Assembly: GCF_031598375.1 (NCBI RefSeq)
Contig: NZ_CP123872.1
Coordinates: 496,001 to 560,000 of the forward strand
Origin: Temperatibacter marinus
GTDB lineage: Bacteria > Pseudomonadota > Alphaproteobacteria > Sphingomonadales > Kordiimonadaceae
Length of the DNA: 64,000 bases
Reading direction: 5' to 3'
Numbering within the stretch: position 1 is the stretch's first letter; each line of letters begins with the position of its first letter. The position numbers were made by a program, and so were the translations under genes. The notes beneath the pieces were generated by a model. The model made no database searches. It saw nothing but the letters and a program-made list of their open reading frames with translations, and was not told the origin of the DNA. Positions 9,056 through 33,970 of the stretch are shown in pieces.

Positions 9056-9073
9056 AATGCTCAATTGGGGCAA

Positions 9074-10450: not shown

Positions 10451-10462
10451 TGTTCTAAGCCT

Positions 10463-14508: not shown

Positions 14509-14535
14509 TTTTTGTCGCAGAAAGACTCGTTTAAA

Positions 14536-15138: not shown

Positions 15139-15169
15139 GCGTGAAATTTTACGAAGATTGTATTTTCAC

Positions 15170-16165: not shown

Positions 16166-16268
16166 GGCTTTACGTAAAAGTTTGAAGTTAAATTTAATTC
16201 TGAATAATCCAAAAGGAGCAATATAAAATTCAATACGGCATGTCAAAATATAAGTTAAAATTATCAGT

Positions 16269-17822
16269 CTACAATTTATTTAAAACTCCAGAAACAGCGA
16301 TGTCCTGAATCCAGGAAGAAAGATTCATGTCAATTACCTCATCACTAACATTGTGCTGTAATTCATGTTTAACTATATAGAGACCCGTTCCCATTAAATT
16401 ATATATTCTTTTATTTATATGCTCAGAAAACAAATATTTAAAAAACAACTCGACGGAATCATTAGTAGTAGTATCACAAGCATATATCCATATAGAATTT
16501 TTGTGTGATGCAGACAAAGTAGCATTGTAAATTTTTTTATTTTTAGCAGCATCACTATTTAGATGTATTATAAAAATATCATAATCAGTCTGGTTTGAAA
16601 GATATGTAAAGTAGTGTGATGGGCATATATCAAAATATTTATGTAGTGACGTTTCAGATGACGAAAAATTTCTATTCTCCGAAACACTAATGCCTCTAAT
16701 TCCACTTCTGCGGGGAAGATAAGATATTGTATCAGCCCCGATCTCAAGCACTTTCTTGGCATATTTCCCTTTGACAATACCATCAATAGCAATTAAATTA
16801 TTTTTATGAATGCTAGGAATCTTTTTTTGTGAATTCAAACCTACTCCTAATTGATTTAACATCACCTCTATATTAGTAAAAACTCTGTTGCACCGAACAC
16901 GTGTTTCTCCTGGAAGTATGCAATCAAAGCTAGAAATAAACTTCACAGCCTGTTTAAATCTTTTTCTCTTTTGTATAGTTAAATAATTTCCCGATAGTGA
17001 TACCCCCCTTGGGAAAATAGTTAATTTCCCTTTAAATCCTTTAAGAAATACCATTGTATGTTGAGAGGAGCTAGCTATGCCTGCAATATGACATGCGTCT
17101 CGATACATTTCGATTTGATCTCTTACAGAGTGGTCTTCGGGCTTATAGATAATCCAGCCATTTTCTTCTAAGTGACTCTCAATTACATTTTCATTGAGAA
17201 CACGAGCTGATGTTTGCGATGTACGAGAAAGCCAAATTTTCTTTTTAAAATCCACCTTAGGGCAATCGATAATCTCTAATGCTTTACTCTGTTCATTAGA
17301 AAAATAATCTTGCACAATATAGCCATATTCCGGGACAATCAATTTCTCAAATTCCATAGGCTTGTCAACCAAAATAATTTCATTATTAATACAGAGCAAA
17401 TCTAATATTTCTTTCTGATAAATCGAAAGTGATTGTTTACCCTCCTCTACAGCCCAAACAATAGGCAAATCACTATTTCTATAATACCAGTATCTCGAGA
17501 GACTATCTAAAATAAAATGGCCATAATGATCGAATAAGATTCCAGCATAAATATAAGTGCCTTTTCTTTTCTCAAAGAGTTCTAACTGTGGGCTCCCCGC
17601 TCCCATAGTAAGTTTGAAATTTTTTTCGATTTTTTGCGGGACAGATATCTGATTATTTTTATATTTCACAACTGCATTAATTTTATAGTATAAACTATTC
17701 TTAACCAATTCATTCTCAGATGTGAATATACCCCCTGAAAAATTACCATATCTATCTTGAGAACGAGGTAAAACTTTAGCTTTAGAATACTGAGCTATAG
17801 AATCTGGTGTTATACTAACCAT
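16269..17822 (-). CDS. GT61-like glycosyltransferase fused to methyltransferase-like domain
   Basis: A 517-residue paralog of the protein at 12919. The GT61 part has DHYGHFILDSLSR at 98-110, KIWLSRTSQTSAR at 195-207, then AGIASSSQHTMVFLKGF and the PRGVSLSGNY segment also present in the paralog. The C-terminal domain keeps VLEIGA at 358-363, a plausible SAM-binding motif I, and DYDIFIIHLN near 413-422 at the motif where methyltransferases usually read FDLIFIDG. The usual acidic and His residues are missing, so activity is doubtful. The gene is visibly richer in A and T, and in Asn, Lys and Ile codons, than the paralog. Its ATG overlaps the upstream sulfotransferase stop by one base (TAATG). 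Confidence 0.75.
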   Translation of the reverse strand: MVSITPDSIAQYSKAKVLPRSQDRYGNFSGGIFTSENELVKNSLYYKINAVVKYKNNQISVPQKIEKNFKLTMGAGSPQLELFEKRKGTYIYAGILFDHYGHFILDSLSRYWYYRNSDLPIVWAVEEGKQSLSIYQKEILDLLCINNEIILVDKPMEFEKLIVPEYGYIVQDYFSNEQSKALEIIDCPKVDFKKKIWLSRTSQTSARVLNENVIESHLEENGWIIYKPEDHSVRDQIEMYRDACHIAGIASSSQHTMVFLKGFKGKLTIFPRGVSLSGNYLTIQKRKRFKQAVKFISSFDCILPGETRVRCNRVFTNIEVMLNQLGVGLNSQKKIPSIHKNNLIAIDGIVKGKYAKKVLEIGADTISYLPRRSGIRGISVSENRNFSSSETSLHKYFDICPSHYFTYLSNQTDYDIFIIHLNSDAAKNKKIYNATLSASHKNSIWIYACDTTTNDSVELFFKYLFSEHINKRIYNLMGTGLYIVKHELQHNVSDEVIDMNLSSWIQDIAVSGVLNKL

Positions 17823-18439
17823 TAATCAATTTCTTCAGGATCATAATTAAATGTTTTAAAATCATTTTTATATAAATTATAATATTTATCTCTGATTTTA
17901 TAAGATAAATCTGAAAATAAAATTTTCTTGTGAGTTCTTTTAGCTTCTTTTCTACGAGGTACTTGCTTTATAGGCAAACTTAGGCTTGAATCATTCTCAA
18001 ATTTGAAAGCCCATTTTTCATCAAAACTATCTTCCTGCTTATAATAGCGAGTGCCGCTTTGATGAAATTCTGCTTGAGGCCTTAGATGATTATCATATGC
18101 ATAGGGATTATTCAAATAATTCCCATAAGCTTCATCAAGCCATTGATCAATTTGAACATCATGCAAGGGATGTCGCATTGTATATTCAGATAACAATCTT
18201 TTATATGGGTGCCTCACAGTCGCAAAGATAAAAGTAATTGCAGTTAAATCTATCACACCAGACAGTTGAGCGAGTGTATAATGCTGTGGAGTGCATAGAT
18301 CAAATTGTGTAAGTCTCTTTCCTCGCCAATAAAACTGAGAATAAGAATTTGCTCTTAGTAAATCCTCAATGTAAGCCCCGCCTGTTTTTGGGATATGCAT
18401 ATATAATATGCTAATTTTATTATTAATATATAAAGGCAT
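17822..18439 (-). CDS. Sulfotransferase, PKTGG subgroup
   Basis: A 205-residue third member of the local trio: PKTGG at 17-21 after ILYMHI, RHPYKRLLSEY at 76-86, and the DNHLRPQAEF/KQEDSFDEKWA block. It forms a translationally coupled sulfotransferase-GT61 pair with 16269, the same gene order as at 12285-14508 but on the opposite strand. Codons are AT-rich like those of its partner, suggesting the pair moved or diverged as a unit. No signal peptide. Predicted to act in the cytosol on a glycan intermediate. Confidence 0.85.
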   Translation of the reverse strand: MPLYINNKISILYMHIPKTGGAYIEDLLRANSYSQFYWRGKRLTQFDLCTPQHYTLAQLSGVIDLTAITFIFATVRHPYKRLLSEYTMRHPLHDVQIDQWLDEAYGNYLNNPYAYDNHLRPQAEFHQSGTRYYKQEDSFDEKWAFKFENDSSLSLPIKQVPRRKEAKRTHKKILFSDLSYKIRDKYYNLYKNDFKTFNYDPEEID

Positions 18440-18697
18440 TTCTATTTCTCATAACTAGCCATTTGCAACCAATTTTCAGAGTCAATGCCATACCCCTATT
18501 GGATAGCTTCAACACTTTTTCATAAAATTTCTTGAGCCACTGATGTTGTAGCCTATAGTAGGTTTTTCGTAACTACCGACGTGCTTTTTTTGATCTGAAG
18601 ATGATGCATAAGAACACTTTTGTAAACAAATAAATAACCTTAATCAATTTAAACAATTATACACTATGGTATTGATTTATCAATATATAAATAACAC
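18440..18697. other. Intergenic stretch with possible decayed coding remnants
   Basis: 258 bases without an intact gene. On the minus strand short open stretches survive (for example one reading LQHQWLKKFYEKVLKLSNR, and in another frame SYEKPTIGYN), broken by stops and frame changes. They may be the lost 3' part of the truncated sulfotransferase upstream or the relic of a mobile element; I could not match either. The 11-base word ATGCATAAGAA occurs at 18604-18614 and again at 18706-18716. Confidence 0.35.
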
Positions 18698-18716
18698 TCA
18701 AATTAATGCATAAGAA
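18604..18716. repeat. 11-base direct repeat around a sulfotransferase break point
   Basis: ATGCATAAGAA is found at 18604-18614 and 18706-18716, 102 bases apart. The second copy lies in the last codons of the truncated sulfotransferase gene. A short direct repeat at a break point is compatible with a recombination or insertion event, but a chance match in AT-rich DNA is also possible. Confidence 0.35.
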
Positions 18717-19060
18717 GGGGATATGTCTGCGAAATATTTTTGTCCCGTATATTTGCAACGAAATAAATCATAATATTTTTCTATATCCGTTAAGGCATCC
18801 AGATGAATAGCATCATTTTTTATATCTTCTATCTGCTTGATATTATCGCCAGAAATATCGCCTATTGACGTGACTTTTCTCTTAAAATTCTCGAGAAACT
18901 TATGAAAATTGTAGGGTAAATACAGTCTTGAAAAGTGATGTAATTCTTTGGTTGGTCCAAACAAGACATCCTGTGTCGATTCAAGATAGTAAGAGAGCCA
19001 GGTAGTTGCAGCTTTTTGTGCCCCAAGGCCGACAATAAATTTAGCGGATTCAAAATTCAT
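18698..19060 (-). pseudogene. 3'-truncated sulfotransferase (QKA-TTW subgroup)
   Basis: A 120-residue remnant. It begins FIVGLGAQKAATTWLSYYL with the PAPS loop QKAATTW at 15-21 and matches the 286-residue protein at 30529 along its length (KELHHF against KELNYW; DISPSYALI against EITPGYALL). It then stops at TGA about four residues after the point where the paralog continues toward its 3' phosphate motif. More than half of the fold, including that motif, is missing, so it cannot be a working sulfotransferase. It starts eight bases after the stop of the sulfotransferase at 19069, in the same direction. A frame break or deletion is likelier than a real short protein. Confidence 0.75.
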
Positions 19061-19068
19061 AATTGCCT

Positions 19069-20097
19069 CTATAGGATATAGCCCAATTCTTTTAGATCAT
19101 ACTTAGTATATTCCGCCAGTTTTCGATTGTGAGGCGCAATATCCTCTGCAATTTTCTCCTGATAAAATTCCGGAATTTCAAGCTTCTCAACTGTAAAATT
19201 GGGGTTTATTTCTCTAGCTTTTTTCACAATTTTTTCTTGTGAAGATCTAAACATAAAATGATGGAATTTTTGATTTTGGAGTTGCCGATCTGGCACCTCA
19301 ATATCAAATTTCTCTTTATACCAAGAGGTTTGATGAGTTGCGATTGCCCTATTATAGGTTCCGCCTCCCATTGAATAGCGCCAGCGCCTGTTAAACAACA
19401 GCATTGCTGCTCTAACCTCATCGGTGTTCTTGGCGTTTACGCTCTCTTTCTTTACATCCGGAAAGTGAGAAATTCCTAGACTTTCACAAATGGTATTTGA
19501 GAAATGCACCGCTCCTTGTTTTATCAATTCAAAAGGAATGGCGTGCACATTTTCTTGACCAAAGATATCTGCATATGTTTCGAATATTTTATCATAATAT
19601 AAATTTGCGTAAGCGCCGATATCTCTATCATAGTAAAAATGATGCAAATGCTCTTCAAAAGAATTGGTGTATCCCAACTGCCAGACGCTTGTATCATAAT
19701 GCGATTTAATGAAATCAAACTGATTGCGTAAAATGAAAATGATTTGAACATCATCACCCATCGCTGCTTTAAGTCTTTGCGCTCTCTGCGGAATATCTAA
19801 TCGTTCAAAAAAGATATTGGTAAATAACTCTTGAGAAACGCCCGCGGCTTTAACGTCCTTATTTTCACTAACTTGAGAAAAAGCTTCGTCAAAAGTTTTG
19901 CGTGTTGCTACAGAATCGAAACAATATTCGGGCGTAGAAAGTGCATCATGCCATAAGAAGACTTTAATGGCCTCATTCAGAGCATATTTGCGAGGCCCTC
20001 TTCCCAAATGAGCAATCTCAGGATGAGAGGGGAAGAAAACATTCTGCAACCAACTTGAGGCCCCCTTTGGAAGGCCAATATGCGCATATTTAATCAT
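19069..20097 (-). CDS. Sulfotransferase-like protein (PKGASSW loop)
   Basis: A 342-residue P-loop protein. The 5' loop is PKGASSW at 10-16 after the strand KYAHIGL, and the 3' motif RNQFDFIKSHY at 124-134 follows the strand VQIIFIL. Gln replaces the usual Pro after Asn in this motif, yet the Ser and spacing are kept. The C-terminal ~150 residues are helical and rich in aromatic and basic residues, as in acceptor-binding lobes of this fold. It is the first gene of a two-gene minus-strand unit with the truncated 18698 copy. Its subgroup has no other member in the window. Confidence 0.8.
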   Translation of the reverse strand: MIKYAHIGLPKGASSWLQNVFFPSHPEIAHLGRGPRKYALNEAIKVFLWHDALSTPEYCFDSVATRKTFDEAFSQVSENKDVKAAGVSQELFTNIFFERLDIPQRAQRLKAAMGDDVQIIFILRNQFDFIKSHYDTSVWQLGYTNSFEEHLHHFYYDRDIGAYANLYYDKIFETYADIFGQENVHAIPFELIKQGAVHFSNTICESLGISHFPDVKKESVNAKNTDEVRAAMLLFNRRWRYSMGGGTYNRAIATHQTSWYKEKFDIEVPDRQLQNQKFHHFMFRSSQEKIVKKAREINPNFTVEKLEIPEFYQEKIAEDIAPHNRKLAEYTKYDLKELGYIL

Positions 20098-20970: not shown

Positions 20971-21858
20971 CTAGTCATTCCAGCTGGGAAGTGATCTTTT
21001 AAAGATTTCTTTTTCACAGTACCGGACTGTACTCTCGAATAGCCCTTCAAAAGAAGCATTTTGTGCTTTATTCTTCCGAAGAGATGCAATCCCTGTTCTT
21101 ACAAATTTCAGAGCCTGATCGGAGGGCTCTCGTATGACTTTCTCAGTTTTTTTGGTTCGATTACTATAGCTACCAATATGACAAAATGGCTTATTTTTCA
21201 CTTTCCCTCTGTTGATGAAATATCCCCAGTCTTCTCCTTTATTTCGAAAAGCAGCTGCATCTGAATCAATTGAACCCACACCAAGAAAATCACAAATTTC
21301 TTTAATAATAGAATTACGTTTTACGCCAAAATAATCTTCATACAAAATTGGGTAAATGTTCTCTTGACCAAAGGTTTCAAAAATGAACGGTAAAAAAAGC
21401 TCATATCTACTTAACCAGATATGATTTAGTAATGTAGAATTTGTGAAATGAAGGTCCGTAGCCGATGATTTTTTTTCCAACTCGATAATTTCTTGAATCG
21501 TTCTATTCTCAGCCAAATGTCTTACCGCGTGATTATAGCTAGAATATGCACGTTTAGCAGGATTGCGCATACAGAGTAAAATTTTCACATCACCGCATTT
21601 ATCTTTCATCAATTTTAACCCATTGGGCATGTATGCAGTCACTGGCATAATATCCATAAGGATTTTTTCATTTCGATAGTTTTTATAATAATGAGATTCA
21701 AAAGCTGCTGGACTTCTTGCACTTCCCTCTTCCAAAACAAAAGCCTTACTTTCCTGATACCTCCCAGGGCATATTTCCGAGTGGTTGCCCAAGTCAAAAT
21801 ATAATGATGTGCTCCCACACTTAGGGAACCCAATAAAAGCCGCATTGGGAAGTGCCAT
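20971..21858 (-). CDS. Sulfotransferase (PKCGSTS loop), last gene of the sugar operon
   Basis: A 295-residue protein with the heparan/NodH-like layout: AAFIGFPKCGSTSLY with the 5' loop at 12-18, DIMPVTAY near 69-76, and the 3' motif RNPAKRAYSSY at 98-108 after the strand VKILLCM. The C-terminus holds KNKPFCHIGSYSNRTKK, a basic stretch that could bind acceptor or cofactor. It begins three bases after the stop of the WbqC gene at 21862, so it is the distal gene of the minus-strand operon running from 28405. Linkage to WecE and WbqC suggests it sulfates a glycan bearing the amino-sugar made there. Confidence 0.88.
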   Translation of the reverse strand: MALPNAAFIGFPKCGSTSLYFDLGNHSEICPGRYQESKAFVLEEGSARSPAAFESHYYKNYRNEKILMDIMPVTAYMPNGLKLMKDKCGDVKILLCMRNPAKRAYSSYNHAVRHLAENRTIQEIIELEKKSSATDLHFTNSTLLNHIWLSRYELFLPFIFETFGQENIYPILYEDYFGVKRNSIIKEICDFLGVGSIDSDAAAFRNKGEDWGYFINRGKVKNKPFCHIGSYSNRTKKTEKVIREPSDQALKFVRTGIASLRKNKAQNASFEGLFESTVRYCEKEIFKRSLPSWND

Positions 21859-21861
21859 AAC

Positions 21862-22560
21862 TTATTCCTTTAATCCTAAACTATTGATCATCATTAGAGT
21901 GTCTATTATGGAGACAGCACCGTCGAAGCCTTCATATAATTGCGGGTAAGGCTGTAGAGGAGAATAATCTGCCCAAATAATCTCTATCCCTTCCTGCGCA
22001 AACAGCTCAACATCCATATAGGCCTGCGCAGCAGGGCCCGATATATAAGACGTGGCCTTCACGGCTTTACAGAGATTAAGTAACCTCTCTGTACTGTCAA
22101 ACTCTTCAAGGGTCCTTAAGTCGAAATGATCTGTAGACCAGGTTATGTCGATGTCGACATGGGCGTATTGACAAATCGATTCCAGAAAATGCCTATTCAC
22201 CATAGAGAGCGATTTTTCACCGATAACATCGTCGTATAGTTGATTTAAGAACGGCATCACCTGTTTGTAATAGGGCGCTTTTCTATACATTTGGTCAATT
22301 ATAGATCTGTGACTATTCATCCAGGTGGGATCGTTTATTTCTGTATGACATATTTTATGCATCCCAAATTGACCTTTGGAATTCACAGGAACAGTGAGCC
22401 ACTTCTTACCTTGTGGTGTTAATATTTGATTGCGATTACGCCAATCACGGCGCGTAAACTGGACATCGTCCAGCAGCACCAGATGATCACTCTCTTTGAT
22501 ATTCATGAAATAGCCGCGCCAAGGAATATAATTGGACTGGGTAACAACAACTTTTTTCAT
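21862..22560 (-). CDS. WbqC-family protein
   Basis: A 232-residue member of the WbqC-like family (PF08889-type), found in O-antigen and exopolysaccharide loci without an established activity. The family signature is clear: VVVTQSNYIPWRGYF, then LLDDVQFTRRDWRNRNQI and KWLTVPV, and a C-terminal WADYSPLQPYPQLYEGF with the SIIDTLM motif. It sits between the propeller gene (one-base gap) and a sulfotransferase (three-base gap). A second WbqC at 32387 is also coupled to a sulfotransferase. This repeated pairing suggests the family works on the same intermediates. Confidence 0.9.
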   Translation of the reverse strand: MKKVVVTQSNYIPWRGYFMNIKESDHLVLLDDVQFTRRDWRNRNQILTPQGKKWLTVPVNSKGQFGMHKICHTEINDPTWMNSHRSIIDQMYRKAPYYKQVMPFLNQLYDDVIGEKSLSMVNRHFLESICQYAHVDIDITWSTDHFDLRTLEEFDSTERLLNLCKAVKATSYISGPAAQAYMDVELFAQEGIEIIWADYSPLQPYPQLYEGFDGAVSIIDTLMMINSLGLKE

Positions 22561-22561
22561 A

Positions 22562-23458
22562 TCATTTCAACTTTGCCATCCCGAATCCAGTCAGGCCATA
22601 GGCATTGCCATTATAGAGCATATAGCGACTGCCTTTATGATCAAAAACACAAGGATATTCGACTGTTTCACTATCCCAGCCTTCTTCAGATACAGAAATG
22701 CCAACTTCCTCATCTTTTCGAACCCAAGTTTTCCCATCCTTGGATTCTGCATAGCCAATTCTATAGGCAAGACCTCTGTAGCTATACCACATCTTAAAGC
22801 CATCTGGGTCTTTGATGACACAAGGCTTAGACATAGCATACTCGCCTTCATCCTTAAAAGGCAGAGCAACATGCCCCTCTCGATTCCAATTCAGGCCATC
22901 ATCTGAGCGGGCATATTTCATCAAATGGGCCATATCCTCTTGTGCGTCGCCCCATGCTAAATTAGAGCCGTACCAAATATGAAATTCTTTATCATCCTGA
23001 AGAATCCAGGGATAAGAAATTGAATATGGGTCTGCATGACAACGGTCTAAAATTGGGGCTTTGCTCACTCTGACAAAGCTGCCGTCATCTTGCTCTACAG
23101 CTGCACCAATACTATTCCGCCACGGCACTGTTACCCCCAAATTCCAACCGAGATAAAAAAGATGTGTTTTGCCGTTAATTTCTGCAAAGCACCCCATTGA
23201 AACGCCGCTGTCATCAAAGAGTCCAACGTCCCCAGGTGAAAGGACTGGCTTATCGCACAACCTCTGGACTGTCAGAGGGTCATTCATATCAATCTCAAGC
23301 CACGAAATATGAGCCTGATTTTGTTCGCTTCGCCCACTAAAATAAACGCGAACTATATCGTCGCCCATAGGGCGCACGACAGGATTAGCTGCGTGAGTTT
23401 TCATCCATTCAAGAGACCCGTCAGGAACAAAAACATGCCCTAGTTTTTCCCACTTCAT
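22562..23458 (-). CDS. Glycosidase-like five-bladed propeller protein
   Basis: A 298-residue soluble protein resembling the GH43/GH32-type propeller families: repeated blade motifs NPVVRPMGDDIVRVYFSGR, KAPILDRCHADPYSISYPW, HIWYGS, CVIKDPDGFKMWYSY, EYPCVFDHKGSRYMLYNG. There is no signal peptide, so a cytosolic site is likely and polysaccharide digestion outside the cell is unlikely. The gene lies one base from a NeuD-like acyltransferase on one side and WbqC on the other, which argues for a part in biosynthesis (sugar binding, transfer or editing). I could not place the three catalytic acids of GH43 with certainty. Confidence 0.75.
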   Translation of the reverse strand: MKWEKLGHVFVPDGSLEWMKTHAANPVVRPMGDDIVRVYFSGRSEQNQAHISWLEIDMNDPLTVQRLCDKPVLSPGDVGLFDDSGVSMGCFAEINGKTHLFYLGWNLGVTVPWRNSIGAAVEQDDGSFVRVSKAPILDRCHADPYSISYPWILQDDKEFHIWYGSNLAWGDAQEDMAHLMKYARSDDGLNWNREGHVALPFKDEGEYAMSKPCVIKDPDGFKMWYSYRGLAYRIGYAESKDGKTWVRKDEEVGISVSEEGWDSETVEYPCVFDHKGSRYMLYNGNAYGLTGFGMAKLK

Positions 23459-23459
23459 T

Positions 23460-24125
23460 CTAAATCCTCTTAAGGGAGGTTGCCTCTAACCCCTCTATTT
23501 TATCTGTATGCTTCCCAGGATAGACTTCATTTTCACCTGTACTCTTCAATAGAATAGCGCCAGCGCCAATAATATTTTTAGGGCCAATTGTAATATGATC
23601 TCTGAGGGTCGCATTCACCCCTAAGAAGGAATATTCGCCAATATCAACACCGCCTGAGCATACAATATGAGATGCAACAAAAACATGATCTCTAATAATT
23701 GTATGGTGGCCAATATGATTGCCGCTCCATAAGACCACGTTATTTCCGACCTCAACAAAAGGTTGGATAGTGTTTTCTTCAAGGATCAGGACATTGTCAC
23801 CAATTTTATCAGTTAAAACGGTAGCTTTCTCGCTGATATAGTTTGCAAGGCTATACCCTAGCCCCTTCATCCAGTGATATTTCTCAGCTCTTAGGTGATT
23901 GAGTTTATTGTAGCCTATGGCCACATATGCATCGTGAGTGTCCGGGGAAAACTGTTGAGAAATCTCTTCAGCTTCGATAACTGGTTTACCCCAAAAACTA
24001 TCCTCTGAGACATGTTCGCCGTCCACGGTAAAAGCCGCAATCTCATAATCAGAATGTTTATCGAAATAATATTGAATAACTTCAGCTTGTTCGCCTACTC
24101 CGAATATTACAAGTTTTTTTGACAT
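23460..24125 (-). CDS. NeuD/PglD-like sugar O- or N-acyltransferase
   Basis: A 221-residue two-part enzyme. Residues 1-75 are a small Rossmann-like nucleotide-sugar binding domain (KLVIFGVGEQAEVIQYYF). From ~95 on it is a left-handed beta-helix with hexapeptide repeats (TIQPFVEVGNNVVLWSGNHI, then GHHTIIRDHVFVASHIVCSG). This is the arrangement of PglD and NeuD, which acetylate UDP- or CMP-amino sugars. It starts right at the stop of the WecE gene, so the likely substrate is dTDP-4-amino-4,6-dideoxygalactose or a relative. A putative catalytic His is in SGNHIGHH. Transfer of acyl groups other than acetyl cannot be excluded. Confidence 0.85.
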   Translation of the reverse strand: MSKKLVIFGVGEQAEVIQYYFDKHSDYEIAAFTVDGEHVSEDSFWGKPVIEAEEISQQFSPDTHDAYVAIGYNKLNHLRAEKYHWMKGLGYSLANYISEKATVLTDKIGDNVLILEENTIQPFVEVGNNVVLWSGNHIGHHTIIRDHVFVASHIVCSGGVDIGEYSFLGVNATLRDHITIGPKNIIGAGAILLKSTGENEVYPGKHTDKIEGLEATSLKRI

Positions 24126-25265
24126 CTATGACCCCTTATAAAACTGATAAATTGTCTGAATAACCTGATCCAATTCATCCCGACTAATTTTGTGATACAT
24201 TGGTAATCGAACCAATTGATAGGATTGTTTTTCTGTAATAGGCAATGCACCACATAAATTAGAGAATTGAACACCCCTATTAGAAGTATGAAGGGGTAGA
24301 TAGTGAAATACTGCATTGACACCCTGTTCATTTAAATACTCAAGCATGTCCTTTTGCTGCTCTGAAGACTGTGTCAGCAGATAGAAAAGGTGTCCGTTTC
24401 CATTTGTTTTAGGCAAATGCTTTTGTAATTTGATCAGCCCTTGCTCTTCAAGAGGTCTTAATTGTTCAACATAATAGCTAAATGCTTCTTCACGCAGTTT
24501 GTTAATCTCATCCATATTTTCAAGCTGTGCAAAAAGATAGGCAGCCAGCATATCGGACATAACATAAGAGGAACCGATATCGACCCAGGTATATTTATCA
24601 ACCTGGCCTCTGAAAAACTGCGATCTATTTGTACCTTTTTCGCGAATAATTTCAGCTCGCTCGAAATATTTAGGATCATTAATGACGAGGGCACCGCCTT
24701 CGCCGCAAATAATATTTTTTGTTTCATGAAAGCTGAAAGTTGCCAGCTCGCCGAACGTGCCTAAAGGCTTGCCGTTATAGGAACTCCCCAGGGCCTGAGC
24801 AGCGTCTTCAACCAAATAAATTTCTCTTTCAGCACAAAAACTCTTTAGGGCATCCATATCACAGCTGACGCCCCCGTAATGAACAGGCACAATAACTTTT
24901 GTCTCTTTTGTTGTAAGCCTCTCCACTTCTGCAAGGGAAATATTCATACTGTCAGGGTCGACATCTGCAAATTTGAGTACGCATCCGCGCAGAAGAAATG
25001 CATTCGCCGTCGATACAAAGGTGAATGAAGGCAGAATGACTTCATCTCCTTCTTGCAAGTCTAAGAGTAAGGCAGCCATTTCTAAGGCAGATGTACAAGA
25101 GGTCGTTAACAGTACACGACATCCCCCCCCCAAAGCAGCCTCAAGCAAGTGCTCGCATTTCTTTGTAAACGGTCCATTGCCGGATATATGGTGCCCCTTT
25201 GAGACAGCCTGATTAATATAATCAGCCTCATTTCCAATCATTGAAGGTTTATTGAAGGGTATCAT
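24126..25265 (-). CDS. wecE: dTDP-4-amino-4,6-dideoxygalactose transaminase
   Basis: A 379-residue PLP-dependent aminotransferase of the DegT/DnrJ/EryC1/StrS family. It converts dTDP-4-keto-6-deoxyglucose to dTDP-4-amino-4,6-dideoxygalactose using glutamate. The start MIPFNKP, TSCTSALEMAALLLDLQ, PSFTFVSTANAFLLRG and VPVHYGGVSCDMD follow E. coli WecE/RffA almost word for word. The PLP lysine is K183 in FSFHETKN and the ring-stacking segment is EDAAQ at 153-157. It overlaps the upstream GT41 gene by four bases (ATGA) and abuts the acyltransferase. The dehydratase that would make its substrate (RfbB) is not in the window, though RfbA is at 33104. Confidence 0.93.
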   Translation of the reverse strand: MIPFNKPSMIGNEADYINQAVSKGHHISGNGPFTKKCEHLLEAALGGGCRVLLTTSCTSALEMAALLLDLQEGDEVILPSFTFVSTANAFLLRGCVLKFADVDPDSMNISLAEVERLTTKETKVIVPVHYGGVSCDMDALKSFCAEREIYLVEDAAQALGSSYNGKPLGTFGELATFSFHETKNIICGEGGALVINDPKYFERAEIIREKGTNRSQFFRGQVDKYTWVDIGSSYVMSDMLAAYLFAQLENMDEINKLREEAFSYYVEQLRPLEEQGLIKLQKHLPKTNGNGHLFYLLTQSSEQQKDMLEYLNEQGVNAVFHYLPLHTSNRGVQFSNLCGALPITEKQSYQLVRLPMYHKISRDELDQVIQTIYQFYKGS

Positions 25266-27292
25266 TCAGCTTGCTCTTTATAAACAGACTCATCGTTGAA
25301 TTCTGTGTATTTCCAAGTTTTCTTATCCGAAGCCATAATCATCTCGTGATTATAGTATATATCATTCATCGCCTTTAACATGTCTTCATTAGCACTATTT
25401 TTGTCTCTAAAGAATGCTTCCTTAGGCTTACCGTCGATAATATTTCTACTAATCTTCACCCGCAGTTTATCATTATCAATTAATTTAATCATGGCCGCAT
25501 AATATTCTTCTATGGTCGATGCTGTTAGCCATTTTGGCTGATTAATTCGCTCTAGAAGATGGCTATCATTATAACTGTGCACTTCATCACCCTGCAAATT
25601 TACCACAGGCAGTCCTTGGATAGAGGCGTCCATGATACTGTTTGTTGCACCGAAAGGAAAAGTGCTCATAAAGATATCGCATTTGTTTAAGTTCGAAATG
25701 TAATCTTCATAGCTTGTTGTTGGAACAACCCTCGTATCAGGTATGTCTTTCTCTAATCTTTGACGAAGAGATTGAAAGAGTGCATTTTTTGCGTTCGGGA
25801 AAAAAACAAACTCCACCGGACGTTTTGATTGCTTATGCAGCTTCTTGCAAACTTCTAAAAAATCTGGCGACACTTTTCTCGACCAAGCTGGAACAGCAAT
25901 TCGAATTTTTTCAGGCTCTGGTCTGATGATATATTTATCAATTTTCAAATCTTCGCGTGCAACATGCCGGGTTGTATTAAGTCGGAAATAAACCTTTTCA
26001 GTCAGCGTTCTCTCATGACCTAGCTGCCCTTCGGCTAGAATTACATAATCCACATACTTAGATCGAGTAGAAGCAGGGTGCCCAAATGTCATCACTTGGA
26101 TAGGAGCAAGCCTGACATTTGAACAAGCAATACTCGACAACCTCATGCCGATACTTGGATAGTAAAGAATATCAGGCTTATAGCTCTTAATTTTGTCAAA
26201 AAGTGCTTTAGGGTTTTCAGAATCAAACTTTGTCGTGTCAATCTCATCGACCATATCAATGATAAGGTCATCAACACAGTTTTCCTCTATGAATAGAACT
26301 GTATGATAATTTTCTTTCAGGGCTTTAATAGAAGGCCCATAGCAACGATGCATTGCATGCTTACTATTATAAAGCTCTGCAAAGATGACGATTGTCGGTT
26401 TTTCAGGCATAGGCCTTTTAGCTGATGTCTTAAGGCCATGAATGTCAGCTTCCTTTAACCAGTTAGAGACATAATCATTTATGGCGTATTTGACATCATG
26501 TTTAAACTCGGCCTGAGCATAACTACACCCCATATAAGCTGGCCCGATAATGCCCAAGGTAGAATTAAAATAAGGCACATCACGCATGGATTGAAGCATT
26601 TTTAGCAGTTCAGTCCTCACCTCTTCAACATTTTCAGCGTATAGCATCTGTTCTGAGAGATAGCCAAGTAACAAGGAAAAGACGACCTCTTTTTGTAGCG
26701 GTCGGATAATGGGCAATAAATTTAAGGTAAGCGCATTAATTGACAAAAGGTGCAAGGCTCGGATCAGTCGATCTTTATTGATCGTATATTGCCCCACCTC
26801 ACTGTATTCTTTTACCCTTTCAATAACTATATTCGTTCCTCTATATCCTGATATTTCAAATACCTGAGAGATCGTTCTTCTATACCGGCAGAGATTGAGT
26901 AAGACAGACACTCTGGTCGGTACACTTTCATCAAAAACAAGATCGATCATCGCTTGTGCCAATCGTGTTGCTGTTGAATCTAAATAATCAGACCTTTCCA
27001 AGTAGCCTTTTTCGCCAAAATGCCAGTCATTGCCTTCAAGCTTTTTTAATATTTTTAACAGCACTGCATAAGCATCTAATGGCTTTTCTTCGCGGTGCAA
27101 TTTTTCCATATACCGAATAGCTACAATCAAACTTTCAGACTCAAGTAACCCCTTACTGACCTGCGTAACACCGTCTACCTTCTCAACCTTCTCAACATTC
27201 ACTGGAGCAGGCTTGTTCTGCGCTTGAGCAGATACTGCCTTCTGACTACCATTCTTCTTCGGTCTTGGTGGCATTTGTTTTTTACGAGCCAT
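25262..27292 (-). CDS. HMW1C-like glycosyltransferase (GT41-type, candidate protein N-glycosyltransferase)
   Basis: A 676-residue protein. Residues 1-45 are basic and rich in Lys, Gln and Pro; ~50-290 is all-alpha; the rest is a GT-B domain. The features match the HMW1C/ApNGT group: AELYNSKHAMHRCYGPS at 305-321, FGHPASTRS at 403-411, IAVPAWSRK near 465-473, and STFPFGATNSIMDA at 543-556 followed by GDEVHSYND. In characterised HMW1C enzymes these segments bind UDP-hexose and glucose is moved to Asn in the cytosol. Residues vary, so donor and acceptor may differ. It lies between two sugar aminotransferase genes, which suggests a donor made here. No signal peptide. Protein glycosylation is inferred from family, not shown. 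Confidence 0.8.
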   Translation of the reverse strand: MARKKQMPPRPKKNGSQKAVSAQAQNKPAPVNVEKVEKVDGVTQVSKGLLESESLIVAIRYMEKLHREEKPLDAYAVLLKILKKLEGNDWHFGEKGYLERSDYLDSTATRLAQAMIDLVFDESVPTRVSVLLNLCRYRRTISQVFEISGYRGTNIVIERVKEYSEVGQYTINKDRLIRALHLLSINALTLNLLPIIRPLQKEVVFSLLLGYLSEQMLYAENVEEVRTELLKMLQSMRDVPYFNSTLGIIGPAYMGCSYAQAEFKHDVKYAINDYVSNWLKEADIHGLKTSAKRPMPEKPTIVIFAELYNSKHAMHRCYGPSIKALKENYHTVLFIEENCVDDLIIDMVDEIDTTKFDSENPKALFDKIKSYKPDILYYPSIGMRLSSIACSNVRLAPIQVMTFGHPASTRSKYVDYVILAEGQLGHERTLTEKVYFRLNTTRHVAREDLKIDKYIIRPEPEKIRIAVPAWSRKVSPDFLEVCKKLHKQSKRPVEFVFFPNAKNALFQSLRQRLEKDIPDTRVVPTTSYEDYISNLNKCDIFMSTFPFGATNSIMDASIQGLPVVNLQGDEVHSYNDSHLLERINQPKWLTASTIEEYYAAMIKLIDNDKLRVKISRNIIDGKPKEAFFRDKNSANEDMLKAMNDIYYNHEMIMASDKKTWKYTEFNDESVYKEQAE

Positions 27293-27304
27293 TGATATTT
27301 CTCT

Positions 27305-28405
27305 TTACTTAATAATAGCGCAAATGTGATGAATTTGCTCATTCGTCAAAAAATTATGGAATGGGATTCCAACCAGAGAGGATTCCAAATATTCGCTCAC
27401 AGGGCATTTATCAAGCCCCTGCAGACCAACTTTTATGTAGGATTGGAAAATCTCATGTTTATGAAGCGGCGGTAAATACCACTGCCGCGTTTGAATTTTA
27501 TTCTCTATGCACGTCTTGATCACAGCCGCTGAGCGACCTTGCGTATTCACCATTAACGTTGCAGGCAGTTTATTTTTATGCGCCTGACAGTAATCCACAG
27601 TGTCTAGAGTATCAATACACTCTTTATAGAGGGCCCACCGTTGTTCCCGCTTCAATGTCACCGCATCCCAGCGCTCAAATTGAGTGAGCCCGACAATGGC
27701 AAAATATTCTGCCAATTTTGCATTAAAACCGATATCTTTAATCAATCCCTGCACAAAACCGAAATTCGAGTTGAGCTTGCTTGAAGAGGCCATAGCGTCA
27801 GAGGCCGTAACAATCAAGCCGCCTTCTCCAATGCCAAATGGCTTTGTGGCATGCATAGAGAAAACCGTCGGTATCTTTGGGGAAACCTCTTGCTGTCCTA
27901 GTGCTGCCGCACTATCAAAAAAGACTGGGATCCCAGTTCGGTCTATAAAAGCTTCCCATGCTCTACTGTCCAAGGCGTATCCAAAAGAGGCAACCGGCAT
28001 AACAGCATCAATGTCACAATAATCAAGCATCGCTTCCACGCCAGCAGGGGTTAAGGTCCATTCTTCTTCGCAGACATCTGCAATCACAGGTTCCATTTCC
28101 GACCGAATGACAGCGAGAATAGTTGCGGGGAACGTCACAGAAGGCACCATGACTTTGGCACCTTTGGGCAGGCCTGAATTTTGCAGCATAAGTTCAAGAG
28201 CGCTCGTCGCATTATTACAACTGACAACATTCAACGGGGCCCCATCTGTTGAAGAAAGGAACTGCGCCATTTTGGCTTCGAACTTTTGCACAAATGGCCC
28301 AAAATTCGTATACCATTGATTGCTATCCATCTCCGCCAAAAGGGATGTATAAGTCTCTACGCTTGGCAGATCAGGTTTCAAGCATTCTATTGCCCATTCA
28401 CTCAT
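27305..28405 (-). CDS. DegT/DnrJ/EryC1/StrS-type sugar aminotransferase
   Basis: A 366-residue PLP enzyme of the sugar aminotransferase family. It shows SCNNATSALELMLQN, PSVTFPATILAVI, and the Schiff-base lysine K188 in HATKPFGIGEGG. The segment that is EDAAQ in WecE reads FDSAAALG here: the Asp that contacts the PLP nitrogen is kept, the following Gln or His is Ala. The first gene of a minus-strand operon that continues with GT41, wecE, acyltransferase, propeller, WbqC and sulfotransferase. It is clearly different from WecE, so two different 3- or 4-amino sugars may be made. The product cannot be named from sequence. Confidence 0.85.
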   Translation of the reverse strand: MSEWAIECLKPDLPSVETYTSLLAEMDSNQWYTNFGPFVQKFEAKMAQFLSSTDGAPLNVVSCNNATSALELMLQNSGLPKGAKVMVPSVTFPATILAVIRSEMEPVIADVCEEEWTLTPAGVEAMLDYCDIDAVMPVASFGYALDSRAWEAFIDRTGIPVFFDSAAALGQQEVSPKIPTVFSMHATKPFGIGEGGLIVTASDAMASSSKLNSNFGFVQGLIKDIGFNAKLAEYFAIVGLTQFERWDAVTLKREQRWALYKECIDTLDTVDYCQAHKNKLPATLMVNTQGRSAAVIKTCIENKIQTRQWYLPPLHKHEIFQSYIKVGLQGLDKCPVSEYLESSLVGIPFHNFLTNEQIHHICAIIK

Positions 28406-28696: not shown

Positions 28697-30367
28697 ATGA
28701 CTGTAGATTTTTCATTCCTCGGTAAAACTTTTGAAAACTGGATCAGCCAAAGACCTGACACAAAACTTCAGTCAGACCACCTCATCGCGAGCTCCTATTT
28801 TATAGACTTAATAAGGCATAAGAAAAAACGTACTCATTTCCATAAATTTATTCGCAAGAATTTGAAGAGTACACATTCTAATTTTTGGAAAAAATTTCTA
28901 GAAGCTTTATTTTCAGAACCCGCTGTCTCATCTCTAGTTCTCTTAGAGCTCATATTTTTATTGACTGAAAACAAGCAACTCGAAGGGAGCTTGGATACCT
29001 ACCTCTCTCTGTTGGGTAGACGATGCGAAAAATTCTCTGCGGACACTGAAGCCAACGATATTTTCCATTGGCTGTATACGGTCAATAGAGAATACCCCAA
29101 TAAAGCAAGATCTTTTTATGCCCTAATCAACAAATTACTCTCCCCACTCAAAGACATAATTCATCCGAAAAACCCCTCGAGAAAGCATTTTGTAATTGCA
29201 GTCAATCATATCCCCTGTCTCCCTGAATCAATTTTAAGAAATTCTCACCTCTTCGTCGTCTATGCATTTATTGAAGTCCTTATCGAAGCCTATGAGGGCT
29301 GCCGAATTCTTCTTGTCTTTACAGGTGAAAATCAACGAAACTCTGAATTTTTGCAGCATCCAAACTATAAAAATCCCAGCCTTGAGGACAGCCGCAAATA
29401 TTATGGGAACTCTTCGAGCCATTTTTGGGAATATCTGCCTAAGAAATGCAAAGAGAGCGTGGAGGTTTTTATTCCTTCTTCTCAGACTGGCACATACAAT
29501 TTATATAATTCGTATCAACAAATTATAGAAAAGATCGAAGCTTTTAATCCGTGCGCAATTTTTACAGCAGGCGGGGTCATGGAAGCCAAATATATCGCTC
29601 AATTATACTACAAAAAGCGACCGACAATTTTTGTACCTTTCAATCAAAACAATCAACTGTTTGCCCCCTATAAAGGGTATTTAAATTATTTTAAAAAGGA
29701 AAAGCTTGCGATCGATCCAATTGCAAGCGACCGAAAATTATTTTCCCATACGAAGGCCGTTTTCATTGATCCCCCAGAACCCATTTTACCGAAACTTGGG
29801 CGTTATAAAAAAACTGATTTTGTTGAGGGTGAAAAAGCATTTCTTCTCGTTACTGCCTTAACCAACAATCGAACCAGCAAGGCGCTAAAGGCTCATTTCA
29901 AAGAAAAAGATCTGGAGCAATTCGCCGCTATTTTTGACCAGCATCCAAACCTACACTGGCTCATTTTCGGGGAAGAAGAGGCTTCTGCTATCACGGAACT
30001 GCACCCAAAACTTCACCAATTACAAAAAGATAAGAGGCTGATCATCCGAGAAAGCGAGTCAAATTTGAGAGGAGCCTATGAGCATTGCAAGATTTACTTT
30101 AATCCTTTTGGTGCTCATGGCGGCGGGAATGGAGCAAGGATGGCAGCTCTAGAAAAATGTGCTGTCATCACCTATTCATCTAGTGACCTGGACATCTTCA
30201 CACCACAAGAGCTCATCGCACCATCTCTTCAAAACCAACTTGAAATATTACTTTCCCTGATTCAATCCGAGGAAAAACTTGCCGATTTTCAGGAGAGATG
30301 TTTTCATAAAACAGCGAATCGTAATCCAAAAAAATTCAAAGAAAATCTTAACACGCTCTTATTTTAG
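28697..30367 (+). CDS. Unknown protein with GT-B-like C-terminal half
   Basis: A 556-residue soluble protein I cannot place in a named family. The first ~170 residues are helical and basic. From ~170 it looks like two Rossmann halves: HFVIAVNHIPCLPESI, then AIFTAGGVMEAKYIAQLYY and IFVPFNQNNQLF. Later come FLLVTALTNNRTSKAL, HPNLHWLIFGEEEAS and YFNPFGAHGGGNGARMAALEKCAVI. The last resembles the donor-binding loop of GT41 and other GT-B enzymes (compare PFGATNSIMDAS in the 25262 protein). A glycosyltransferase role is likely but unproven. It opens a plus-strand run followed, 161 bases on, by two sulfotransferases and WbqC. Confidence 0.65.
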   Translation: MTVDFSFLGKTFENWISQRPDTKLQSDHLIASSYFIDLIRHKKKRTHFHKFIRKNLKSTHSNFWKKFLEALFSEPAVSSLVLLELIFLLTENKQLEGSLDTYLSLLGRRCEKFSADTEANDIFHWLYTVNREYPNKARSFYALINKLLSPLKDIIHPKNPSRKHFVIAVNHIPCLPESILRNSHLFVVYAFIEVLIEAYEGCRILLVFTGENQRNSEFLQHPNYKNPSLEDSRKYYGNSSSHFWEYLPKKCKESVEVFIPSSQTGTYNLYNSYQQIIEKIEAFNPCAIFTAGGVMEAKYIAQLYYKKRPTIFVPFNQNNQLFAPYKGYLNYFKKEKLAIDPIASDRKLFSHTKAVFIDPPEPILPKLGRYKKTDFVEGEKAFLLVTALTNNRTSKALKAHFKEKDLEQFAAIFDQHPNLHWLIFGEEEASAITELHPKLHQLQKDKRLIIRESESNLRGAYEHCKIYFNPFGAHGGGNGARMAALEKCAVITYSSSDLDIFTPQELIAPSLQNQLEILLSLIQSEEKLADFQERCFHKTANRNPKKFKENLNTLLF

Positions 30368-30528: not shown

Positions 30529-31389
30529 ATGACTGACTTTAATGATAAAACGCTCCTTCTTGGCATCGGCGCTCAAAAAGCAGGCACCACGTGGCTGAGT
30601 TCGTTCTTGAACGGCCACGCAGATGTCTTTATGTCGCCGATTAAAGAGCTGAATTATTGGAATATGCTCCATGTGCCTGAGATACGCCCTATCCAAGAAG
30701 CTTATTTCCTCAGTCAAATGAAGCGCATGTCAGCCGGCATCACCAGTTACAGCGAAGTGTTAAATAAAAGCCCGCGCTATAAACAATTAGTAAATTACAT
30801 CGAGCGCTTTGAGATGGCCTCAACAGATGACTATATGAATTTCTTCCAAAAACGCGTTGGCGCACAGAAAATCATGTGCGAGATCACACCTGGGTACGCA
30901 CTGCTCAGTGCCGAGCATTACGAAGAAATGTATAAATTACATCCCAGCGTTAAAATCATATTCATTATGCGCGATCCCATAGATCGCTATTGGTCTAATT
31001 TGAGATTCTACCAAAAGCTCATGAAAAATTTTGATGCTAAAGAGAATTTTGTGCGCAGGCTTTCTGACAAACCCTATTATCAGCGGACCGATTATGCGCG
31101 CACAATGGTAGAACTTGAAAAGTCTGTTCCTGCAGAAGATCGCCTCTATCTCTTTTATGAGGATCTTTTTACTCAGGCCTCCATTGACAAAGTGACACAG
31201 TTTATTGGTGTTCCTTCTGAAAAAGCTGATTTCGATCGCGAGGTGAATAAATCACCCTCCATCCCCATCTCTGAAGAAGAACAGAAGTTAGCCTACGATC
31301 AATTTGCATCTATCTATAAAAAGCTCCATGATAAATTCGAGGGCAAGCTACCGAAGCGATGGTTAGAAAATATGGAAAAATTTGGCTAA
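30529..31389 (+). CDS. Sulfotransferase (QKAGTTW loop)
   Basis: A 286-residue sulfotransferase of the common bacterial type 1/3 layout. LLGIGAQKAGTTWLSSFL has the 5' loop QKAGTTW at 16-22, KELNYW follows near 39-44, and the 3' motif RDPIDRYWS is at 148-156 after VKIIFIM. A late ...RWLENMEKFG C-terminus ends the fold. It is the intact counterpart of the truncated gene at 18698. The following gene most plausibly starts at the ATG overlapping this stop (TAATG), so the pair is coupled. Predicted cytosolic; acceptor unknown. Confidence 0.9.
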   Translation: MTDFNDKTLLLGIGAQKAGTTWLSSFLNGHADVFMSPIKELNYWNMLHVPEIRPIQEAYFLSQMKRMSAGITSYSEVLNKSPRYKQLVNYIERFEMASTDDYMNFFQKRVGAQKIMCEITPGYALLSAEHYEEMYKLHPSVKIIFIMRDPIDRYWSNLRFYQKLMKNFDAKENFVRRLSDKPYYQRTDYARTMVELEKSVPAEDRLYLFYEDLFTQASIDKVTQFIGVPSEKADFDREVNKSPSIPISEEEQKLAYDQFASIYKKLHDKFEGKLPKRWLENMEKFG

Positions 31390-32387
31390 TGACTGAAAAA
31401 AAGCGGGATATTGATATCGGCAGATCTAAAGACTTTGAGAAGGACGCAAGTCTAGAGGATGTTCTTTCAACGTTAAATACCCTCATCAAACCTCATAAAG
31501 GCTCGCAGAAAGAAAACCAGTATCCACCGATTTTTATTGTTGGTTGCCCCAGAAGTGGTTCAACGCTCTTGCTTCAATGGCTCGCGTCGCTGGGTCATTT
31601 CTCTTATCCATCAAATCTATTGGCTCGGTTTTATGCGAACCCCTATTTCGGTGGGCTGGTTCAAAATGCCCTCATCGATTATGATGAACAGAATATTTTG
31701 AACTTTGATAAATCAATCGACTATCAGTCAAATCTAGGCCGCTCCACTGGGGCATTAGCCCCCAGTGAATTCTGGTATTTTTGGCGTCAGCATTTTTCAT
31801 TGGATGAAATTAGTGTCCTAACAGAAAGTGCTAAGAAAGCGGTGGACAAGGAAAACTTTAAAGAAGCACTCGCCGGCATAGAAGAAGTATACAACAAACC
31901 AACCGTGATGAAGGCAATGATCCTAAACTGGGACATTAGCTTTTTAGCGGAGCTTGTTCCCAATGCCCTTTTTCTGAATGTTGAGCGCAGTGATTTTCAC
32001 GCAGCACAATCTTTATATTACGCACGTACGAATTTTTTCAATGACGTAAAACGGTGGTATAGCTTTAAACCGCCAGAATATGAGCAATTAAAAGAGAAAG
32101 ATCCTCTTGAACAAGTTGCGGGTCAAGTCATTCATACAAAACGGGCTGTGATTGAGGAATTAGCGAAAATTAACCCGTCAAATCAATTGACCCTCAATTA
32201 TAAAGATTTTTGCTCTGATCCCGCAGGCATTTTCCACAAGATTACCGCGAAATTGGCGCTGCTTGGCTATGATCAGGCCATGCCCTATTCTGGCCCAACA
32301 CACTATACCTACCGCGAAGAAATTAAACTTTCTACAGACCAAGAAAAGCAGCTCAACGACGCACTTGAAAAGTATCGGAATAAATAA
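31389..32387 (+). CDS. Sulfotransferase-like protein (CPRSGST loop)
   Basis: A 332-residue P-loop protein. PPIFIVGCPRSGSTLLLQWL places the loop CPRSGST at 53-59 after a ~45-residue charged N-terminal tail, the pattern of Sulfotransfer_3-type proteins. The 3' motif is diverged (LFLNVERSDFHAAQSLYYAR, around 195-215). I use ATG 31389, overlapping the previous stop as TAATG, instead of the ATG 30 bases upstream, which would cause a longer overlap without a ribosome site. It is itself followed by WbqC with a one-base overlap, so three genes form one tightly coupled unit. Less certain as a true PAPS user than its neighbours. Confidence 0.8.
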   Translation: MTEKKRDIDIGRSKDFEKDASLEDVLSTLNTLIKPHKGSQKENQYPPIFIVGCPRSGSTLLLQWLASLGHFSYPSNLLARFYANPYFGGLVQNALIDYDEQNILNFDKSIDYQSNLGRSTGALAPSEFWYFWRQHFSLDEISVLTESAKKAVDKENFKEALAGIEEVYNKPTVMKAMILNWDISFLAELVPNALFLNVERSDFHAAQSLYYARTNFFNDVKRWYSFKPPEYEQLKEKDPLEQVAGQVIHTKRAVIEELAKINPSNQLTLNYKDFCSDPAGIFHKITAKLALLGYDQAMPYSGPTHYTYREEIKLSTDQEKQLNDALEKYRNK

Positions 32388-33103: not shown

Positions 33104-33970
33104 TTAGCTATACTTCATAATTTCCATAAGATATTCACCGTAACTATTCTTATAGCCTTTAGCCAATATTTCCAGGTCTTCCGTTGTGATAAATCCTTGT
33201 CTCCAAGCAACTTCCTCTGGGCAGGCAATTTTCAAGCCTTGACGCTGTTCAACAGTCTGAACAAAATGTGAGGCTTGGATAAGGCTATCAATCGTTCCTG
33301 TATCGAGCCAAGCAAAGCCGCGCTGCATTTTAATCACATTCAACTCACCCGCTTTTAAGTAAGCATCATTGACGGATGTAATTTCAAGCTCACCGCGGTG
33401 AGATGGCTTAACCTTCTTGGCAATGTCGACAACTTTATTATCGTAAAAATATAGTCCTGTCACAGCCAAGTTACTTTTCGGGTTTTCGGGCTTTTCTTCA
33501 ATCGAGAGAGCTTTACCTGACTCATCCATCTCCACGACACCAAAGGCTGTAGGGTCCATAACTGGATAGGCAAAGACATAGGCCCCATTCTCGACCTTAC
33601 TGGCTTTGATGAGATATTCAGAAAATCCTGCGGAATAGAAAATATTATCGCCAAGAGCGAGAGCAACTGAAGACTCCCCAATGAAGTCTTCGCCTAAAAG
33701 AAAGGCCTGCGCCAGACCTTCAGGTTTGGCCTGCTCAATATACTCAATCGTTATTCCCCATTGATGTCCGTCCCCTAATAAATCTTCATAAAGGGGCAGA
33801 TGTTGCGGCGTAGAAATAATCAAAATCTCTCTAATCCCCGCTAGCATCAATGTCGTTAGGGGATAATAAATCATTGGCTTGTCATAGACAGGCAGCAATT
33901 GTTTACTGATTGATTTTGTAATTGGATAAAGTCTTGTTCCCAGTCCACCAGCAAGGATAATACCCTTCAT
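33104..33970 (-). CDS. rfbA: Glucose-1-phosphate thymidylyltransferase
   Basis: A 288-residue nucleotidyltransferase that makes dTDP-glucose from dTTP and glucose 1-phosphate, the first step to dTDP-deoxysugars. The start [16 protein letters not shown] with [17 protein letters not shown] is the canonical RmlA nucleotide-binding stretch. Later segments [39 protein letters not shown] and [10 protein letters not shown] complete the family pattern, and the length is normal. It is distal to rfbC (78 bases between them). rfbB and rfbD are absent. Its product could feed both a rhamnose-type branch (RfbC) and the WecE branch. Confidence 0.95.

Follow-up and report, generated by a model that had tools for sequence, protein, structure and literature searches.

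What sugar does an enzyme related to HMW1C transfer, and to which acceptor, when its gene lies between two genes for sugar aminotransferases? The question is posed by a stretch of 64,000 nucleotides from Temperatibacter marinus (Kordiimonadaceae; NZ_CP123872.1, positions 496,001 to 560,000), here called the window, which belongs to a one-contig genome of 3.18 Mb. The gene lies at 25262-27292 on the minus strand and encodes a glycosyltransferase of the GT41 family, with an AAD domain and a GT-B fold. The HMW1C enzymes covered by a review and a structure paper use hexose donors and modify the Asn-X-Ser/Thr sequon (PMC3983070, PMC10507012); those reviewed are encoded beside two-partner secretion genes or alone, in the Pasteurellaceae, Enterobacteriaceae, Neisseriaceae and Burkholderiaceae (PMC3983070). 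The window protein has the fold and the ancestry of the HMW1C branch, its clade has kept donor residues and lost acceptor residues, and in its relatives the gene is obligately paired with an aminotransferase gene, usually in an operon with a type I exporter and an RTX gene. We propose, tentatively, that the two genes form a cassette which glycosylates an exported protein, mostly an RTX protein, with the amino sugar made by the partner enzyme and at a site other than the sequon.

Fold and ancestry

The open reading frame starts with ATG and codes for 676 residues with no internal stop. The protein matches the NCBIfam NGTferase model (NF049992) nearly end to end (residues 101-633, E 5e-79), with a score of 266 bits, which is under the curated cut-off of 1000 bits. 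Among solved structures, its sequence matches ApHMW1C (3q3e, E 9e-56) and AaNGT (8p0o, E 5e-57). The score against the Pfam GT41 profile (PF13844) is 23.5 bits, just under the gathering cut-off of 25; for this reason, a search of the whole T. marinus genome with PF13844 gave no match. Homologues, most of them 40-46% identical, are present in 17 of the 30 Kordiimonadaceae genomes, and the reading frame is therefore not a chance one. The carriers include Eilatimonas milleporae, Kordiimonas marina, K. gwangyangensis and K. laminariae, as well as metagenome-assembled genomes (MAGs) of the group. Within the family, T. marinus forms a genus by itself among the genomes compared. One further family genome holds only a 96-residue HMW1C fragment at the end of a contig. 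Relatives on contigs were found by an alignment-based scan; a single-sequence scan of the same genome contigs gave none, and no relative was found in the viral contigs that were scanned. Close members of the clade also occur in MAG contigs labelled Oceanospirillaceae (L065) and Spartobacteria (L070). The first of these has the complete Kordiimonas-type operon, each gene being 44-77% identical, which makes mis-binning or a recent transfer likely.

In the AF2 model (pLDDT 86, pTM 0.85), the AAD domain is joined to the GT-B fold along the whole chain. The model superposes on AaNGT (8p0q) with a Z score of 42.3 and a root mean square deviation of 2.7 over 590 residues, the N-terminal AAD domain included. 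SPINDLY and the O-GlcNAc transferases, which are GT41 enzymes of the tetratricopeptide repeat (TPR) type, rank behind with Z scores of 33.5 or less. The AAD domain is what separates HMW1C proteins from TPR-type GT41. A tree of 40 rows sets the HMW1C branch apart from TPR-type GT41 (support 100/100). Within this branch, the Kordiimonadaceae clade (97/95) is sister to the canonical N-glycosyltransferases (NGTs), and the node joining the two has a support of 99/99. When about 400 sampled Pseudomonadota genomes were scanned with the NGT model, four NGTs scored above 1000 bits and one scored 694 bits; the Kordiimonadaceae proteins scored 200-266 bits and everything else less than 82 bits. The placement in GT41 is made despite the low PF13844 score because fold and tree both put the protein there. 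It belongs to the HMW1C-like branch by fold and descent, which bears out the relatedness claimed in the sequence-only reading. It is not a canonical NGT, since the residues that define that group, described below, are changed.

Donor and acceptor sites

Residues are numbered, and their roles assigned, as in AaNGT (PMC10507012). Fifteen members of the main clade were compared with seven canonical NGTs. In the donor core, H276, G369, H370, K440, T519, N520 and D524 are invariant in all 15 members and R280 is present in 14; these residues contact the pyrophosphate, the ribose and the hexose. The acceptor side has been exchanged: R177 is Q and H214 is absent in 15 of 15, and D215 is P in 14 and Q in the remaining one. 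All three are kept in the seven canonical NGTs, including the divergent protein at 694 bits. They are the residues that read the sequon; in AaNGT, R177 and D215 read the Thr at its position +2, and R177A and D215A are each inactive (PMC10507012). The nucleotide pocket also differs. At H494, which contacts uracil, 13 of the 15 members have R (R, T or A overall), S495 is variable (T, K or other), S277 is replaced by A, and T437 on the pyrophosphate side is W in 14 members (W or F overall). At T525 and T526 of the window protein, most relatives carry R and then T or K. Judged by these residues, the enzyme looks like a live transferase. As the acceptor site and part of the nucleotide pocket have been exchanged, its sugar, its attachment site or both probably differ from those of the canonical enzymes. 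The sequence-only reading had suggested an alignment to HMW1C and ApNGT as a check; the clade agrees with the canonical enzymes at the pyrophosphate and ribose contacts and departs from them at the acceptor residues and the uracil pocket.

The sequence-only reading had considered N-glycosylation of Asn-X-Ser/Thr with UDP-glucose. In its fullest form, a canonical NGT would place glucose on RTX protein sequons, with later addition of the amino sugar and of sulfate. The match to the NGT profile and fold over the full length and the kept pyrophosphate and ribose residues would suit such an enzyme. However, the whole clade has replaced two residues that are each essential in AaNGT, and it has changes at the uracil site and at T437. 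The obligate partner of the enzyme is an aminotransferase, and the RTX proteins show no excess of sequons and do not differ in this respect between carriers and non-carriers of the enzyme (see below). We consider this explanation quite improbable.

The aminotransferase partner and the operon

In the window, seven genes with gaps of -4 to +12 bp form an operon on the minus strand that reads from 28405 to 20971. The HMW1C-like gene does lie between two DegT aminotransferase genes, one 12 bp away and the other overlapping it by 4 bp. The first (27305-28405, minus) is DesI-like: DesI is its best-named relative among both profiles and PDB entries, with a score under the DesI cut-off. The lysine that would carry the pyridoxal phosphate, K188, is invariant. 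DesI aminates dTDP-4-keto-6-deoxyglucose to dTDP-4-amino-4,6-dideoxyglucose. The second (24126-25265, minus) is a dTDP-4-amino-4,6-dideoxygalactose transaminase of the WecE type (543 bits, cut-off 375). The operon had been read as one making dTDP-amino sugars; this is supported directly for the WecE-type gene, which is additional to the conserved pair, whereas it is the DesI-like gene that has been conserved as the partner. The last gene of the operon, as claimed, encodes a sulfotransferase (20971-21858, minus; Sulfotransfer_1 34.8 bits, cut-off 22).

The presence of the partner aminotransferase was called at E <= 1e-60 across the 30 family genomes. The 17 genomes with a hit are the same 17 that carry the HMW1C-like gene, and the two genes are neighbours in every one of them; the other 13 have neither (Fisher p 8e-9). 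In nine family loci and in the MAG locus labelled Oceanospirillaceae, the genes for the ABC exporter, HlyD, DUF6212, GT2, the aminotransferase and the HMW1C-like protein follow one another in a colinear run, with small gaps or none, and the HMW1C-like gene is the last. Wherever the upstream flank was read, the gene immediately preceding the exporter codes for an RTX protein. The pair also keeps together in other surroundings. In K. marina and K. gwangyangensis it is found on the opposite strand, in genome G004 it lies beside an RTX gene, and in genome G005 a diverged pair is surrounded only by unrelated genes, 160 kb away from the exporter. The DesI-like aminotransferase is the obligate and closest partner of the HMW1C-like gene.

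The exporter and the RTX genes

A type I exporter had been placed in the same island, and it is there (9074-12136); its coupling to the HMW1C-like gene is conserved across the family, which is stronger than the window by itself could tell. The ABC protein (10463-12136, minus) is of the PrtD/HlyB type and matches the PrtD structure 5l22 (E 3e-91). Its score against the PrtD model, the best of 187 models, is 469 bits, just under the cut-off of 510. The HlyD-type adaptor (9074-10450, minus) scores 275 bits (cut-off 209). They are followed by a DUF6212 protein (7589-9073, minus), which is a conserved gene of the exporter operon, and by a GT2 glycosyltransferase (5616-7556, minus) in the same position as in Kordiimonas. 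The next gene encodes a GT4 glycosyltransferase (Glyco_trans_4_3; 4319-5566, minus), whose Kordiimonas homologue lies upstream of the RTX gene. Two RTX genes are located to the left of the window, at genome positions 483181-488865 (1894 residues) and 489411-492560 (1049 residues), and their products are the likely substrates of the exporter. The two RTX proteins are 54% identical over 595 residues, and the longer one contains near-identical internal repeats. RmlB, RmlD, sulfate activation genes (CysD and a CysN/APS kinase fusion) and a polysaccharide exporter of the KpsM/KpsE type are also encoded to the left of the window.

Candidate acceptors

Enrichment of sequons in the RTX proteins of Kordiimonas was considered and rejected: the raw excess is in part due to GNDT inside the RTX repeats, and most of the proteins show none after masking. 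With the repeats masked, N-X-S/T is not generally in excess in the RTX proteins. The observed to expected ratio is 1.28 in genomes with the enzyme and 1.39 in those without (p 0.49). This removes the main support that would be wanted for an N-glycan on the RTX proteins and leaves other acceptors unaffected.

Flagellin, which had been named as a possible carrier of the glycan, was rejected as a target. The T. marinus genome has five flagellin genes, all far from the island, and no flagellin gene was seen in the loci that were annotated. More broadly, the enzyme could be a protein glycosyltransferase whose acceptor is flagellin, an autotransporter or another cytosolic or exported protein, and not an RTX protein. 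The distance between pair and exporter in G005 is in line with this, as are the five flagellin genes and a second HMW1C-like gene in genome G022, which lies near an autotransporter gene; but most members of the clade end an RTX exporter operon. A protein other than RTX as the acceptor appears very unlikely to us. The second copy in G022 has no aminotransferase beside it and closes a run of genes for an autotransporter, a NeuD-type acyltransferase, a beta-keto acid cleavage enzyme and the HMW1C-like protein (L038:4264-10931). The G022 autotransporter is not rich in sequons.

Proposed function

The donor, the acceptor, the linkage and the order of the steps given here are those that we infer. 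RmlA and RmlB, from what is known of their families, would supply dTDP-4-keto-6-deoxyglucose. The adjacent DegT aminotransferase would convert it to a nucleotide-linked 4-amino-4,6-dideoxyhexose, probably linked to dTDP, and in some genomes NeuD- or WbqC-like enzymes encoded next door may N-acylate the amino sugar. The HMW1C-like enzyme, predicted to be soluble and cytosolic, would then transfer the sugar to a protein destined for export, at a non-canonical site outside the sequon. In most genomes, the RTX protein that belongs to the neighbouring type I system would be this acceptor and would be secreted afterwards. The GT2 and GT4 enzymes of the locus and its sulfotransferases may extend or decorate the product, or they may serve a separate surface polysaccharide.

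A number of observations weigh against this proposal. The co-occurrence of the aminotransferase and the HMW1C-like gene is clustered phylogenetically, and about two changes on the exporter tree suffice to explain it; we have for this reason given more weight to the pair staying together in different neighbourhoods. Eight relatives, G005 among them, carry the locus with exactly the pair missing. Their loci contain the GT4 gene, the RTX gene, the exporter, DUF6212, GT2, in most cases a sulfotransferase, further glycosyltransferases and RmlA. Export can therefore proceed without the pair, which might just as well vary a polysaccharide. In the window, the gene order is broken, with sulfotransferase and GT61 genes splitting the exporter operon from the aminotransferase-HMW1C operon, 13 kb apart. 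The ABC protein of the window forms a long, divergent branch in the exporter tree, the DUF6212 protein shares only about 17% identity with its relatives, and a capsule-type ABC exporter is encoded in the same region.

The main alternative is that the enzyme acts on a glycan. It would add the amino sugar to a surface polysaccharide, of the capsule or O-antigen type, by which the RTX layer is anchored, and the joint production of protein and anchor would be the only reason for exporter and sugar genes to share a locus. RTX proteins, a type I exporter and polysaccharide genes do lie in one locus here, with the KpsM/KpsE-type exporter nearby, and the same genes co-locate in Caulobacter, where smooth lipopolysaccharide anchors the RTX protein RsaA (PMC3034196). 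In the manner of serotype genes, the pair may be present or missing in a glycan locus that is otherwise constant, and the residues that read the peptide are lost. On the other side, the acceptor-binding AAD domain is whole; the solved GT41 relatives from the structure comparison (OGT, SPINDLY and NGT) all act on proteins; no genes for glycans or export surround the pair in G005; and the second G022 copy is near an autotransporter gene. A protein acceptor is favoured by the intact AAD domain, by the activity of the solved relatives and by the isolated pair, and it is weakened by the optional nature of the cassette and by the RsaA precedent. A polysaccharide acceptor seems to us a serious alternative, if a rather doubtful one.

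Comparison with known systems

With HMW1C, ApNGT and AaNGT, the clade has in common the AAD domain and the GT-B fold over the whole chain, a sister position in the tree, and the residues for the donor pyrophosphate and ribose. It differs in the replaced R177, H214 and D215 and in the changed uracil site and T437. It also differs in being paired with an aminotransferase and with type I/RTX export, as compared to two-partner secretion or no partner (PMC3983070).

FlmG of Caulobacter is likewise a soluble cytosolic transferase of an alphaproteobacterium, with an N-terminal substrate-binding module and a C-terminal glycosyltransferase module, and it resembles the proposed role in that it O-glycosylates flagellin before export with a donor other than glucose (PMC7591256). 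In contrast to the window protein, FlmG has a TPR domain instead of the AAD domain, uses pseudaminic acid and modifies flagellin. In the VioA-VioB-VioT island of Pseudomonas syringae, an aminotransferase and an acyltransferase make a dTDP-4-amino sugar, dTDP-viosamine, for the glycan of an exported flagellin (PMC3927599). There, the amino sugar caps an O-linked rhamnose chain, the transferase is a different one, and the substrate is again flagellin. The cyanobacterial RTX surface proteins SwmA and oscillin are reported to be glycosylated, as the proposed product would be (PMC3034196). In the system of RsaA and smooth lipopolysaccharide of Caulobacter, an RTX protein, a type I exporter and polysaccharide genes occur together, as they do here. 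To our knowledge, this arrangement includes no HMW1C-like protein transferase. RsaA differs from the proposed product in that it is held by lipopolysaccharide (PMC3034196).

We found no paper in the open-access literature that ties an HMW1C-like enzyme to RTX proteins or to type I export. Each idea has a precedent in FlmG, in the use of dTDP-viosamine on flagellin glycans or in glycosylated RTX proteins; the combination, with an altered acceptor site in a sister clade of HMW1C, is new as far as we have checked. The locus might even represent a third HMW1C system, with an amino-dideoxy-sugar donor, modification of RTX proteins outside sequons before type I export, and a glycan acylated and sulfated by neighbouring enzymes, but we hold this fuller picture to be unlikely. 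If the proposal is true, the sister clade would show how one-enzyme cytosolic glycosylation changes its donor and acceptor, it could offer a tool for attaching amino sugars to proteins, and it would account for the glycosylation of some RTX surface proteins.

Other features of the region

Between the WecE-type gene and the terminal sulfotransferase gene, the operon encodes, all on the minus strand, a sugar acyltransferase of the NeuD/PglD type (23460-24125; 161.7 bits, cut-off 160.8), a GH130-like protein whose matches are below the cut-offs (22562-23458) and a WbqC-like protein (21862-22560; E 4e-67). Upstream of the DesI-like aminotransferase gene and divergent from it is an open reading frame of 556 residues (28697-30367), which has no Pfam match at the cut-off and no NCBIfam match. 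Two sulfotransferase genes (30529-31389 and 31359-32387, spanning 30529-32387) follow on the plus strand, and RmlA (33104-33970) and RmlC (34049-34621) are encoded on the minus strand. The sulfate activation genes and the KpsM/KpsE-type exporter (L048:5757-8560 and L048:11875-16150) share their region with many sulfotransferase genes, which fits a sulfated surface polysaccharide.

DUF6212 proteins occur in 24 of the 30 family genomes, and in the loci that were read they sit between HlyD and GT2 of the exporter operon. A search of the T. marinus genome with the DUF6212 profile gave no match, nor did any control; in the scan of the window, the protein passes the cut-off. No solved relative was found by sequence. 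The model of a Kordiimonas homologue (e.g. L071:4648-6804) consists of a long helix and three beta-sandwich domains in tandem that resemble carbohydrate-binding modules (CBM-like, Z about 10). DUF6212 proteins contain GWCRW motifs. It would be unusual for a type I exporter to have a partner that binds carbohydrate.

Genome G004 (L040:2132-10174) has two tandem GT41-like genes of the TPR type, coding for 583 residues each, beside the gene for an FG-GAP/cadherin protein of 1382 residues. This is another GT41 group adjoining a large surface protein with repeats. The FG-GAP profile found no match in the T. marinus genome, though relatives have FG-GAP.

The sulfotransferase and GT61 genes between the exporter operon and the HMW1C-like operon occupy 12285-20097. 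A sulfotransferase-GT61 gene pair occurs there twice in opposite orientation, at 12285-14508 (plus) and 16269-18439 (minus), which suggests an inverted duplication.

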